From: Cohaesibacter marisflavi
GTDB lineage: Bacteria > Pseudomonadota > Alphaproteobacteria > Rhizobiales > Cohaesibacteraceae
NCBI RefSeq assembly: GCF_900115225.1
Contig: NZ_FOVR01000006.1
Coordinates: 182,000 to 245,999, forward strand
DNA length: 64,000 nucleotides
Direction of reading: 5' to 3'
The notes under the pieces are model-generated. The model made no database searches. It had not been told where the DNA came from and saw only the letters and a list, made by a program, of their open reading frames with translations. Numbering within the stretch: position 1 is the first letter of the stretch; every line of letters starts with the position of its first letter. The position numbers and the translations under genes were made by a program. Of this stretch, positions 28,327 to 33,195 are shown one piece after another.

Positions 28327-28387
28327 CAATTTATTGTTCTTAAAGAAGAGTTAAAACAAATCCTGTTTGATAGGGTCACAACGCAAC

Positions 28388-28436
28388 AGGAACAGGGTCC
28401 GCTTGGCTCAAGTGAACCGACCCCGTTCCTTCTTTT
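28388..28436 (+). terminator. Rho-independent terminator after the M24 gene
   Basis: Arms AGGAACAGGGTC and GACCCCGTTCCT pair with one mismatch around a 19-nt loop and are followed by TCTTTTT. Confidence 0.8.
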
Positions 28437-28498
28437 TGCCAATGAGGCCATTGGGCAAAAATGACATTGAGCGCACAGAAATGCGGAGTGATGATACC

Positions 28499-29158
28499 AT
28501 GCATAATCAACACCTGGGTTTACTGAGCAGAGTCTCAGCTTTGGTTTCTCTGGCGATGCTCGTAACTGCATGCGCCAGCGGAGGAGCCCCCACACCTCCC
28601 GGAGCAATTGGAGACACCCCTCCTTCCATTCTGGAAAGCCTGCCACCGGCAGAGGCTCCTGCTGATGAAACCGGTCAGGATGGCATAACCAATCTGGCCG
28701 CAGCAGACACGGCAGGTCTTCCCCCGGCCACCAGCCTTCCCAACGCGACCAGCACCAACACCAGCCAGCCAGCCACGCAATATCAGGCTCCTGCCTCTCG
28801 TGCGGTCTTGACATTCGAGCCTATGGTTGGCGCACCCAGCCGTGTTGCCCGCGAATTGGCAACAGCGCTTGGCATGCGCGTGGCACAACAGTCCTTGCCT
28901 GTGGTCAAGCGCACCGACAGCAAGGTCACCCATCGGATCAAGGGCTACTTCTCTGCCAGCAAATCCGGCTCCGAGTGCGTGGTCTCCTATGTCTGGGATA
29001 TTTTCGATGCGAAGGGCAAACGCGTCAATCGCGTAACCGGAACGCAAAAGACCCAGATGGTCTCTTCCGATCCATGGGATAGCGTCACCGGCCCAGTTCT
29101 GGACAAGGTGGCAACGGATACAGCCGCCAAGCTTAAAACCTGGCACGCCAGCATCTAG
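28499..29158 (+). CDS. Lipoprotein of unknown function
   Basis: A 219-aa lipoprotein: signal sequence HLGLLSRVSALVSLAMLVTAC with the lipobox LVTAC and Cys at residue 25. A Pro/Ala/Thr-rich disordered linker follows (about 28-110), then a conserved-looking domain of about 110 residues (FEPMVGAPSRVARELATALG, HRIKGYFSASKSG, VVSYVWDIFDAKGKRV). I know similar lipoproteins from Hyphomicrobiales but no function. The ATG at 28499 has GGAG 10 bp upstream. Terminators flank the gene on both sides. Confidence 0.8.
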   Translation: MHNQHLGLLSRVSALVSLAMLVTACASGGAPTPPGAIGDTPPSILESLPPAEAPADETGQDGITNLAAADTAGLPPATSLPNATSTNTSQPATQYQAPASRAVLTFEPMVGAPSRVARELATALGMRVAQQSLPVVKRTDSKVTHRIKGYFSASKSGSECVVSYVWDIFDAKGKRVNRVTGTQKTQMVSSDPWDSVTGPVLDKVATDTAAKLKTWHASI

Positions 29159-29190
29159 AACAGCACAGCTTTACAATAATCAAGTTGCCC

Positions 29191-29224
29191 AAAAGCGCCC
29201 ACAGATCTCAGCGGGCGCTTTTCT
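29191..29224 (+). terminator. Rho-independent terminator after the lipoprotein gene
   Basis: AAAAGCGCCC and GGGCGCTTTT form a perfect 10-bp stem with a 12-nt loop, 32 bp past the stop; the T stretch is part of the 3' arm. Confidence 0.85.
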
Positions 29225-29446
29225 ATGCATCACCTTAGTGGAGGCGACACAAATTCGGAAATTGGCAAAAATCCAATATATTTTTCCGATATCTAGAATA
29301 ACTATAATTTTAAAATTGTATTATTCGGCACAACAGCGCGACAAATTGTCTCTCTATACTTGATTTTTAGTTTGTTAACCACGTTTAAAAAACAACAAAA
29401 TATCATCCCTGACAAAAATAAAGCAATTTTATAGGGGAATAAAATA

Positions 29447-31930
29447 ATGCAATACTTCTCTTCAATAAAGCAGCGAAAGTCGTGCTTTATTTATATCAGT
29501 AGTATTACAGTATCTTTTGTTACTTTTCTATTCGGATCTGCAAGTGCCATGGCCACGCCAGCGCTTGAGGCACGTATTACCGAGCTTGAAAACCAGATTG
29601 CACAGGGTATACACGCCCAGCAGGTCAACTCGGATCACATCTGGACCATGACGGCCGCCGCGCTGGTTTTGCTCATGCAGGTTGGCTTCCTTTTGCTTGA
29701 AGGCGGCATGGTGCGCTCGAAAAATTCCATCAACGTCGCCCAGAAGAATATTCTCGACCTTCTGGTTTCCATTTCCCTTTTCTACCTGCTTGGTTTCGGG
29801 CTCATGTTTGGCACCAGTCTTGGCGGCTGGATCGGTTGGCAAACCGATCTGTTCGCGTGGGATTCTTTCCCCGACTGGAATTACACCTTCTTTGTCTTTC
29901 AAGCCGTGTTCGTCGGCACTGCCGCCACCATTGTCTCCGGCGCGGTGGCCGAGCGTATGACTTTTACCGGTTATCTCGCCAGCTCTGTGCTCATTTCCAT
30001 GATCATCTATCCGGTCTTTGGCCATTGGGCATGGGGCAACCTGTTAAGCGGCGACAACACCGCCTGGCTCGCGGACAAAGGTTTCATCGATTTTGCAGGC
30101 TCCTCGGTCGTCCATTCGGTCGGAGCCTGGGTGGCTTTGGCTGGCATCATCATCATCGGCCCCCGCATCGGTCGCTTCAACAGAGACGGTACGCCCAACA
30201 AGATCCAGGGCTATTCCATCGTTCTTGCCTCTGCCGGGGCCATCATTCTGCTGTTCGGCTGGATCGGTTTTAATGGTGGCTCCACAACGGCAGGAACGCC
30301 GGACTTTGCCCGCATCATTGCCAACACTTTGCTATCAGCGGTCTTTGGCGGCACGGCAGGCTTTCTGCTTGGCTGGGTCAAGGATGACGTGTTCGAGCCC
30401 AGCCGCTCCATCAACGGCATGCTCGGGGCGCTGGTCGCCATCACCGCAGGCTGCGATGCCGTCAATCCGCATGGCGCCGTGATGATCGGCATCATCGCGG
30501 GCCTTGCCGTATGCCTTGCCGAAGACTTCATCGCTGGCGTACTGAAGCTGGATGACGTGGTCGGCGCCGTCTCGGTTCATGGTGTGGGCGGTGCATTGGG
30601 CACCCTGCTAGTCGCTCCCTTTGCCATTGACAGCAAGTTGGCCGCAGGCTCCCGTGTTGACCAGTTTTTGGTTCAGGGACAAGGCGTGCTGCTCTGCTTT
30701 GTCTGGGCCTTCACTGCTGCCATCGTCATGTTCAAACTGATTGATATGACCGTCGGCCTGCGTGTCGACGCTGAAGACGAATTGCGCGGCCTCAACATTT
30801 CCGAACATGGCGCAACCCTCGGCACTGGCGAGTTACAGCGCAAGCTGATGGAAATGACCGAAGGCACCTGCGATTTGACCAGCCGCTTTGACGAAAGCTC
30901 CGGGGATGAAATGGGCGAGCTAGCCCAGGTGATCAACCCTTTTGTCGACAAGGTCCATCACCTCGTCTCCGAAATATCCAGACAGGCGGAGGCCGTGGAC
31001 GAAACCTCGCAAAATCTGGTTGAGATCTCGCAGGAATTCACCGACAACTCCCAAATGCTGGCCAGTCATTCCTCCAGCATGCATGAAGTGGTCTCCGGCG
31101 TTGAAAGCCGCATCGGCTCGGCCCAGAGCACCTCATCACAAATGGCCAAATATGGCGAGGAAATCGTCTCCTCGGCCCGCAGCATGTCCAACGAGATCCG
31201 CGAAGTATCCGATACGGTGGGCCATCTCGCCCAGTCTGTGGAGGAGATCGCCTCCAGCGCGGACAATGCCTCGGAAATCTCACTCAAGGCAGCCAATCTG
31301 TCGTCCAATGCCAACGACACCATGGAAGCACTGGTGGCTGCATCCAAAGAAATTGACGTGGTTGTGCAGTTCATCATGAATATGGCAAACCAGACGAACC
31401 TGCTGGCCCTCAACGCCACCATTGAAGCCTCCCGCGCGGGCGAAGCGGGCAAAGGTTTTGCCGTTGTGGCCGACGAGGTTAAGCAGCTAGCGGTACAGAC
31501 CTCCAAGGCCGTGGAAGAAATCAAGGAAAAAGTGAACCGCATCCAGAGCGGCTCCAACAGTGCCCAGACAGGCATCGATGAGGTTTCCAAAATCATTCTG
31601 GCCATTCGCGAAGGCGTGGAAACGATCCGCGAGACGACTCATCAGCAAAGCCAGTCGACCTCCAACATCGCCCAGAGCACGTCTCAGATCAGCTCCATGG
31701 CAGAGGACATGACCAACAGAATCACCGGACTGTCCTCCGGCATCGGCGAGATCTCGATGGCAGCCAACGATATGTCGACCGCCTCCAAAGGCCTATCTGA
31801 AACCAGCGGCATTCTGAATGGTCGCGCCAGAAGCGGCGAAAGCAACGCCAGCCAGACAAGAGACCGTGCTCAATCGCTCAAAAAGGTATCCCGGAGCCTT
31901 GTCCAGTCCGTTGCCGAATTCAAGGTCTGA
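29447..31930 (+). CDS. Ammonium transporter-methyl-accepting chemotaxis receptor fusion
   Basis: An 827-aa protein. Residues 1-37 are a signal peptide. Residues about 60-445 form a complete Amt/Mep/Rh channel: [20 protein letters not shown], the Asp in [14 protein letters not shown], the twin pore histidines H223 and H378 (VHGVGGALG), [10 protein letters not shown], and the Amt C-terminal motif [17 protein letters not shown]-like linker follows (about 462-515). Residues about 515-827 form an MCP signalling coil with the CheA/CheW-binding tip [20 protein letters not shown] (646-665). It is predicted to couple ammonium binding or transport to flagellar chemotaxis. No che genes are nearby, and no glnK. 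A GGGGA ribosome-binding site precedes the ATG. Confidence 0.95.
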
Positions 31931-32262: not shown

Positions 32263-33195
32263 ATGAAACTTCTCGCCGGCAATTCCAATCCGACTCTCAC
32301 CAAACGCATTGCCGATTATCTCGGCATTGAAATCAGCGATGTTTCCGTAAGACGATTTGCGGACCAGGAAATCTTCATCGAAGTGCACGAAAATGTGCGC
32401 GGACAGGATGTCTTCGTGGTTCAGCCAACCTCTTATCCGGCCAACGACCATCTGATGGAACTGCTGATCCTGATCGACGCTCTGCGCCGCGCATCAGCAC
32501 GCCGCATTACCGCGGTCGTGCCTTACTTCGGCTATGCACGCCAGGACCGGAAACCCGGCCCGAGAACACCAATCTCGGCAAAACTGGTTGCCAACCTCAT
32601 CTCGAATGCGGGCGCAGATCGCGTCCTGACACTCGATCTGCATGCAGCCCAGATTCAGGGCTTCTTCGACATTCCGACTGACAACCTTTATGCCGCTCCG
32701 GTTTTCTCCCGCGACATTCTGGAACGCAACGAAGTCGAAGACGTCATGGTGGTTTCTCCGGACGTTGGCGGCGTGGTTCGCGCCCGCGCTCTGGCAAAAC
32801 GCATTGGCGCCCCGCTGTCCATCGTCGACAAGCGTCGTGAACGCGCCGGTGAATCCGAAGTGATGAACATCATTGGCGATGTAACAGGCCGCAACTGCGT
32901 ACTCGTAGACGACATCATCGATTCCGGCGGCACCCTGTGCAATGCAGCAGAAGCCCTCATCAACAAGGGTGCAGCATCGGTTACAGCTTACATCACCCAC
33001 GGCGTTCTGTCTGGTGGAGCTGTTGCCCGCATTACCGCTTCCAAGCTGCGCGAATTGGTCATCACCGATTCCATCGAGCCGACTGAAGCGGTTCTGAACG
33101 CCCATAACATCCGCGTTCTGAGTGTCGCCAACCTGCTCGGCGAAGCCATTTCCCGCACAGCCAACGAACAGTCGGTTTCATCCCTGTTCGACTAG
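32263..33195 (+). CDS. prs: Ribose-phosphate pyrophosphokinase
   Basis: Makes PRPP from ribose 5-phosphate and ATP for nucleotide, histidine and tryptophan synthesis; cytoplasmic hexamer in the family. The 310-aa length is normal. Motifs: [20 protein letters not shown], the ATP loop [10 protein letters not shown], the metal-binding [15 protein letters not shown] and the PRPP loop [15 protein letters not shown]. It has its own terminator. PRPP is the substrate of the apt product encoded at 45.8 kb. Confidence 0.97.

Follow-up and report, generated by a model that had tools for sequence, protein, structure and literature searches.

An Amt domain fused to a chemoreceptor signaling domain in Cohaesibacter marisflavi: a likely ammonium chemoreceptor from a family of sensor Amts

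A 64,000-nucleotide stretch of the Cohaesibacter marisflavi genome (here called the window) encodes one protein of 827 residues in which an Amt domain is followed by a HAMP domain and an MCP signaling domain. Judging from its sequence, this protein is likely an ammonium chemoreceptor, with an Amt part that we predict to sense ammonium rather than to transport it, and our best reading is that the fusion comes from one family of sensor Amts that are likely nonconducting. The gene is a single reading frame that runs from ATG to stop without interruption at positions 29447 to 31930 of the forward strand. Its parts and its surroundings are as follows, in window coordinates.

29447..31930, forward strand: Amt-HAMP-MCP fusion gene, 827 residues (ORF, Pfam domains, homologues, and relatives).
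29447..29554, forward strand: N-terminal hydrophobic stretch resembling a signal peptide, residues 1 to 36 (sequence; helix 11 to 30 in the model).
29558..29623, forward strand: stretch ahead of TM1, residues 38 to 59 (one helix with TM1, 38 to 88, in the model; predicted to be periplasmic).
29642..30817, forward strand: Amt domain, residues 66 to 457, with the pore residues and the residues of a Ks-Amt5-type site (Pfam and alignments).
30779..30796, forward strand: altered C-terminal switch ELRGLN, that is, ExxGxN, residues 445 to 450 (alignments; meaning of the motif from the accessible part of PMC4852598).
30830..30952, forward strand: HAMP domain, residues 462 to 502, covering profile positions 12 to 50 of 53 (Pfam).
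31256..31780, forward strand: MCP signaling domain, residues 604 to 778 (Pfam and model).
31397..31459, forward strand: hairpin tip, residues 651 to 671, facing CheA/CheW by homology (alignments).
29159..29446, no strand: intergenic region upstream of the fusion, 35% G+C (base composition and motif scans).
28367..29158, forward strand: upstream neighbor, a hypothetical protein, bounding on the left the site at which six relatives have no fusion (flank comparison).
32263..33195, forward strand: downstream neighbor, ribose-phosphate pyrophosphokinase-like (prs, named from sequence), forming the right edge of the same site (flank comparison).

The initial annotation of this gene had described an Amt joined to a HAMP-like linker and an MCP coil, and all three Pfam domains indeed exceeded their cutoffs: PF00909 (Amt; residues 66 to 457, 348.1 bits versus a cutoff of 23.2), PF00672 (HAMP; residues 462 to 502, 31.4 bits versus 25), and PF00015 (MCPsignal; residues 604 to 778, 121.8 bits versus 34.6). 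The two pore histidines that it had named, H223 and H378, are present together with the Phe gate (F155 and F275) and the vestibule residues W196 and S279. Among the 120 homologues listed, W196, S279, H223, and H378 are kept in 120, 118, 120, and 120 proteins, respectively. In structure comparisons, the Amt part has the Amt fold with its eleven helices, and the hairpin, formed by helices 564 to 663 and 665 to 766 in the single-chain model, matched long helices and other receptors and little more. The signaling tip is intact, as had been claimed, with N656, E660, G665, and F671 invariant in both homologue alignments. Ahead of the channel, residues 38 to 59 (29558 to 29623) look amphipathic and continue as one helix into TM1 in the model, and they could possibly form a coil above the trimer.

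The fusion is intact in 8 of the 20 genomes of the family (its own included), all in one genus, at 79 to 100% identity. In the seven other genomes it lies in one frame of 828 to 837 residues, and the same two genes flank it in all five relatives whose flanks were checked. Both PF00909 and PF00015 are present in every one of the 120 database homologues listed, the close matches including two Cohaesibacter proteins with 78 to 79% identity (P0005 and P0006). Since seven other genomes carry the fusion and the homologues listed have both domains, an assembly join is excluded; the one-frame copies and shared neighbors likewise rule out a frameshift, the other error that the initial annotation had considered. 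It is extremely improbable that the gene is an assembly artefact or a decaying, functionless fusion, a reading to which two observations might lend something: 12 of the 20 family genomes gave no match at an E value of 1e-150, and at one homologous locus, on an uncultured Rhodobacteraceae contig (L014:3902-5629), the frame stops within the MCP part while the match continues, making this a broken or misassembled copy. Against this stand the eight intact family copies, the 120 database proteins listed, and the functional columns kept in 18 and in 78 aligned homologue rows. Six of the 12 genomes lacking a match were examined, and each keeps the gene block with no fusion between the hypothetical gene and prs; the fusion is therefore a clean accessory gene.

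The evidence that sets this Amt apart from a transporter lies at the C-terminal end of the channel. According to the accessible part of PMC4852598, five C-terminal residues are universally conserved in transporters (Arg370, Glu376, Gly379, Asp381, and Tyr390 in Amt-1 numbering), mutants in the ExxGxD motif are inactive, and open channels go along with close docking of the C-terminal region. The window protein retains the first three as Arg439, Glu445, and Gly448, but it has Asn450 in place of Asp and Gly459 at the Tyr position. The C-terminal motif thus has the letters that the initial annotation gave it but is not the ordinary Amt motif that it was taken for, and “complete ammonium channel” overstates the case, as two of the five residues universal in transporters are replaced. 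Because of these two replacements, we predict that the channel does not conduct in the manner of a transporter.

The exchange of Asp for Asn followed fusion in three sets of proteins, which overlap in kind and are not independent. Among 80 loci, the switch residue is Asn in 45/45 fused and Asp in 35/35 unfused Amts; these are the best 80 of 557 loci, fetched through two peptide patterns, with tail types assigned by a homemade MCP profile and regular expressions and two kinases (L048 and L057) recognized by eye. In a Pseudomonadota sample of 45 Amts from 40 hand-picked stretches, it is Asn in all 4 fused and Asp in all 41 unfused proteins. Among the database proteins listed, it is Asn in 240/240 fused and Asp in 120/120 unfused proteins; the 240 comprise the 120 Amt-MCP matches listed and 120 matches of an Amt-GGDEF-EAL protein, one of the latter without most of the Amt, and the 240 and the 120 were all close relatives of three queries, neither set being independent of the other. 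Across all three sets, Asp occupies the ExxGxD position in 196 of 196 unfused Amts. The C-terminal Tyr was found in none of the fused Amts of the three sets (0/45, 0/4, and 0/240) and in 35/35, 32/41, and 120/120 of the unfused ones. The single known exception to Asn is a degenerate Amt-like kinase in the same genome, which has Ser and stands outside the counts and the tree. Residue 84 tracks fusion less strictly (Val in 35/35 unfused Amts, Leu in 39 of the 44 fused Amts with a letter there). A GlnK gene was found on none of the 45 fused loci versus 29 of the 35 unfused loci, the 6 unfused loci without it including some on short contigs, and no GlnK match was detected in the 64-kb window (best E value, 0.66). 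We found no description of ExxGxN as a family-wide switch in the literature searched, part of which was accessible only in part.

The residues of the buried ammonium site tell a different kind of story. In Ks-Amt5, two ammonium ions are held in a buried site made of Q24, E31, N47, D50, T51, T109, and T112 (accessible part of PMC5764959). The equivalents in the fusion are Q78, E85, N101, D104, L105, T161, and S164, so that five of seven are identical and the differences are T51 to L105 and T112 to S164. Wherever the 120 homologues listed are aligned, Q78, E85, N101, D104, and T161 do not vary; Glu replaces the site Asp in one of the 45 fusions among the 80 loci. As proof of sensing, these residues fail the control: the same Q, E, N, D, and T occur in all 35 unfused Amts among the 80 loci (GlnK lies on the locus in 29 of these) and in 120/120 further unfused database proteins, so the site alone is no argument for sensing. 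One of the two peptide patterns covers N101, and the count for the N47 position among the 80 loci is therefore biased. The site Gln is absent from all 41 unfused Amts of the Pseudomonadota sample. Since unfused relatives share the five residues, the site marks an Amt subfamily and not sensing as such. The statement that assimilatory Amts lack the site (accessible part of PMC5764959) is qualified accordingly, five of the seven residues being present in unfused, mostly GlnK-linked Amts. As a separate observation, E85 (29699 to 29701) lies five residues ahead of an RxK motif, which by spacing would be the place of Mep2 Tyr49, a residue that bonds the twin His and closes the Mep2 pore (accessible part of PMC4852598). 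At this position the unfused Pseudomonadota Amts have Tyr in 35/41 and Glu in 6/41, and the subfamily of the fusion has Glu.

The protein could instead be a transceptor, a term used for fungal Mep2, with an Amt part that continues to transport ammonium and a receptor tail that signals the flux; we consider this unlikely. All pore residues are intact, and the bulky residues said to block the pore of Ks-Amt5 are only partly shared: F81 is common to both, and Y30 and F34 correspond to L84 and M88 here, so nonconduction does not follow from these positions. Moreover, in one alphaproteobacterial genome (G286; 1.6 Mb, 95% complete) an Amt-MCP fusion is the sole Amt match, with which a transporting fusion would fit as well; either a piece of that assembly is missing or the cell has no ordinary Amt. 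Against transport, every counted fusion has lost both the Asp of ExxGxD and the Tyr that follows it, and ExxGxD mutants are reported to be inactive (accessible part of PMC4852598). In addition, none of the 45 fusions has a GlnK gene beside it. An Amt match in a frame of ordinary length (<550 residues) is also present in C. marisflavi itself and in 9 of the 10 further fusion-bearing genomes searched; of these frames, only that of C. marisflavi was read.

The preferred reading, a sensor Amt, is consistent with the tree of 100 Amt domains, which was built by a quick method without the switch columns; 12 of the 41 unfused Pseudomonadota rows were included by hand, and one truncated sequence (L016) and the degenerate Amt-kinase of C. 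marisflavi were left out. All 52 fused rows, including Ks-Amt5 and Sd-Amt1, fell on one side of one branch, whose support (SH-aLRT, 89) is below the 95 level. This branch holds MCP, kinase, and c-di-GMP outputs, with 3 label changes for MCP, 5 for GGDEF, and 6 for kinase. The change from D to N and the fusion each required one change on the tree, and the perfect association of switch and fusion therefore represents one event without reversal and not many. The simplest reading would be a single conversion to a receptor, after which outputs were swapped. Amt-MCP fusions were found in Alphaproteobacteria, in Imhoffiella, Saccharospirillum, and Alteromonas (Gammaproteobacteria), in Metabacillus and Halobacillus (Bacillota), in Neorhodopirellula (Planctomycetota), and in Verrucomicrobiota and Spirochaetota MAGs. 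Within the class, the fusion was detected in at least 4 of 289 genomes (its own included) at an E value of 1e-150 and looks uncommon, a count that is a lower bound because the threshold was strict and scoring was limited to three candidates in each genome.

Both chemotaxis genes and flagellin genes are present in the C. marisflavi genome (5.34 Mb in 41 contigs), and the reading of the protein as an ammonium chemoreceptor, first proposed in the initial annotation, is supported as likely. There are 30 MCPsignal matches and 11 flagellin_N matches, 9 of the latter above the cutoff. A search for CheW domains in this genome found one cluster only, made of one CheW and a CheA frame that contains two CheW domains, and near it lie CheY-, CheB-, and CheR-like genes and a FliI-like ATPase gene (names read from the ORFs). 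CheW-domain genes were also found in all 10 other fusion-bearing genomes. That the receptor has a chemosensory output other than swimming, or responds to a signal other than ammonium (methylammonium, or the state of the membrane or its energy), strikes us as quite improbable: ammonium as the ligand is itself predicted from sequence, and the sign and the output are not given by the Pfam domains, but the genome has a single CheA/CheW cluster with a FliI-like gene nearby, and the parts responsible for selectivity (W196, S279, and the twin His) are kept in 120, 118, 120, and 120 of the 120 homologues listed.

The fusion is one of four Amt genes in its genome. The unfused AmtB has an adjoining GlnK gene. 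An Amt-PAS-GGDEF-EAL protein of 1,077 residues (L008:8248-11481; contig C28:248247-251480) has ExxGxN and is a second intact sensor Amt; with the same switch in both proteins, ammonium may feed both chemotaxis and c-di-GMP. The fourth gene encodes the degenerate Amt-like protein (L004:460-2646, reverse strand; contig C27:338252-339352), with an Amt match of 135 to 137 bits, an HATPase tail of 22.7 bits that is below the 26.4 cutoff, Phe in place of both pore His, and the switch EKRGLS. This kinase is possibly an ammonium-blind sensor of something else. All seven other fusion-bearing genomes of the genus have four Amt matches in frames of the same sizes, including a low-scoring match in a frame of similar size to that of the degenerate protein.

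The tail of the fusion matches the receptors among which it would work. The HAMP motif and the hairpin tip are 158 residues apart in the fusion, 158 residues apart in 102 of the 108 measurable proteins among the 120 Amt-MCP homologues listed, and 158 to 159 residues apart in 13 of the 14 resident receptors with a HAMP-like motif (among 21 frames from 20 stretches), one of these 13 having another HAMP-like motif nearer the tip. Given this match in length, the tip of the fusion should reach the same baseplate level as the tips of the resident receptors. The fusion has no strict methylation motif, whereas 19 of the 21 resident receptor frames have one; a relaxed motif coincides with the +79 position of the resident receptors, and residues 599 and 600 form an EE pair one heptad closer to the tip than the resident -63 site. 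Together with the genome in which the fusion is the sole Amt match, the missing strict motif weighs against the explanation that we favor.

Under that explanation, NH4+ would pass the outer vestibule (W196 and S279) and lodge at or close to the twin histidines and the buried Q78/E85/N101/D104 site. In transporters, the resulting shift would let the C-terminal region dock and the channel open; in the fusion, the C-terminal region would no longer dock and open the pore normally, and the shift would instead go along the C-terminal helix into the HAMP domain and the hairpin. These would change CheA activity through CheW and so bias flagellar rotation. Amts are trimeric and ordinary MCP sensors are dimeric, which poses a genuine symmetry puzzle. 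Because the Amt part forms a trimer and HAMP-MCP coils form dimers, we propose an assembly of two Amt trimers and three shared receptor dimers, which from symmetry alone would be the smallest one that satisfies both and would amount to one trimer of dimers.

The region upstream of the fusion (29159 to 29446) differs from the window as a whole in base composition (35% versus 54% G+C). Nitrogen control via sigma-54/NtrC was considered and rejected: the sigma-54 site (TGGCAC-N5-TTGCA) is absent from this region, and its count in the whole window is near chance (32 found versus 28.3 expected). A sigma-70 scan of the same region gave one weak site on the opposite strand. The upstream element GTTAACCAC is largely retained in four aligned relatives.

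Among the closest known systems is Ks-Amt5 of “Ca. Kuenenia stuttgartiensis” (PDB 6eu6), a published ammonium sensor histidine kinase (accessible part of PMC5764959), and the initial annotation was right that Amt-histidine-kinase sensors are known. Ks-Amt5 shares with the fusion the Amt fold, the pore residues, the site residues Q, E, N, and D and T109, ExxGxN, a fused C-terminal signaling part, and a place on the same branch; its output, however, is a DHp-CA kinase without HAMP in contrast to the HAMP domain and MCP hairpin of the fusion, and its T51, T112, Y30, and F34 are L, S, L, and M in the fusion. Sd-Amt1 of Shewanella denitrificans (PDB 8qj3, 8qj4, and 8qpf), which we know from the titles of its entries and its aligned Amt part, is described in those titles as a receptor that has ON and OFF states. 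It has the Amt fold, ExxGxN, and Q, E, N, D, T, and S at the same site positions, but this chain of 644 to 661 residues groups with kinase and GGDEF fusions, apart from the Amt-MCPs closest to the window protein. AmtB and Amt-1 transporters with GlnK resemble the fusion in fold and pore but keep ExxGxD, mostly keep the Tyr, often have an adjoining GlnK gene, and have no signaling tail. The ordinary HAMP-containing MCPs of C. marisflavi have the same tip sequence and HAMP-to-tip length, whereas the sensor of the fusion is an eleven-helix channel fold and a strict methylation motif is missing from it. Its own Amt-PAS-GGDEF-EAL protein shares ExxGxN and the site residues but has c-di-GMP output domains.

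The fusion combines a sensor Amt with a chemotaxis output and carries a family-wide switch. In the literature searched, which most subscription papers lay outside, we found neither an Amt-MCP chemoreceptor nor a direct bacterial ammonium chemoreceptor; the lone match for “Amt-MCP” was false, being AMT-mcpGFP. Taxis to ammonium salts is described for a few Clostridium strains, with no receptor given in the accessible part of that source (PMC9689628). We put forward tentatively, as a possibility somewhat short of an even chance, that an ancient single conversion, in which ExxGxD became ExxGxN and the Tyr and the GlnK partner were lost, turned the channel into a receptor in which the C-terminal region has ceased to open the pore and drives any plugged-in output instead; the outputs would then have been swapped among kinase, c-di-GMP, and chemotaxis. 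Where chemotaxis became the output, the threefold channel would drive twofold coils through paired trimers, giving a preformed trimer of dimers.

Ammonium ranks among the major nitrogen sources, and the Amt-MCP fusion is a candidate direct bacterial ammonium chemoreceptor with relatives across several phyla. Its database homologues are often named “ammonium transporter,” and as a one-residue marker, ExxGxN could tell ammonium receptors apart from real transporters. The same residue also offers a one-residue test of the conversion of a channel into a receptor.
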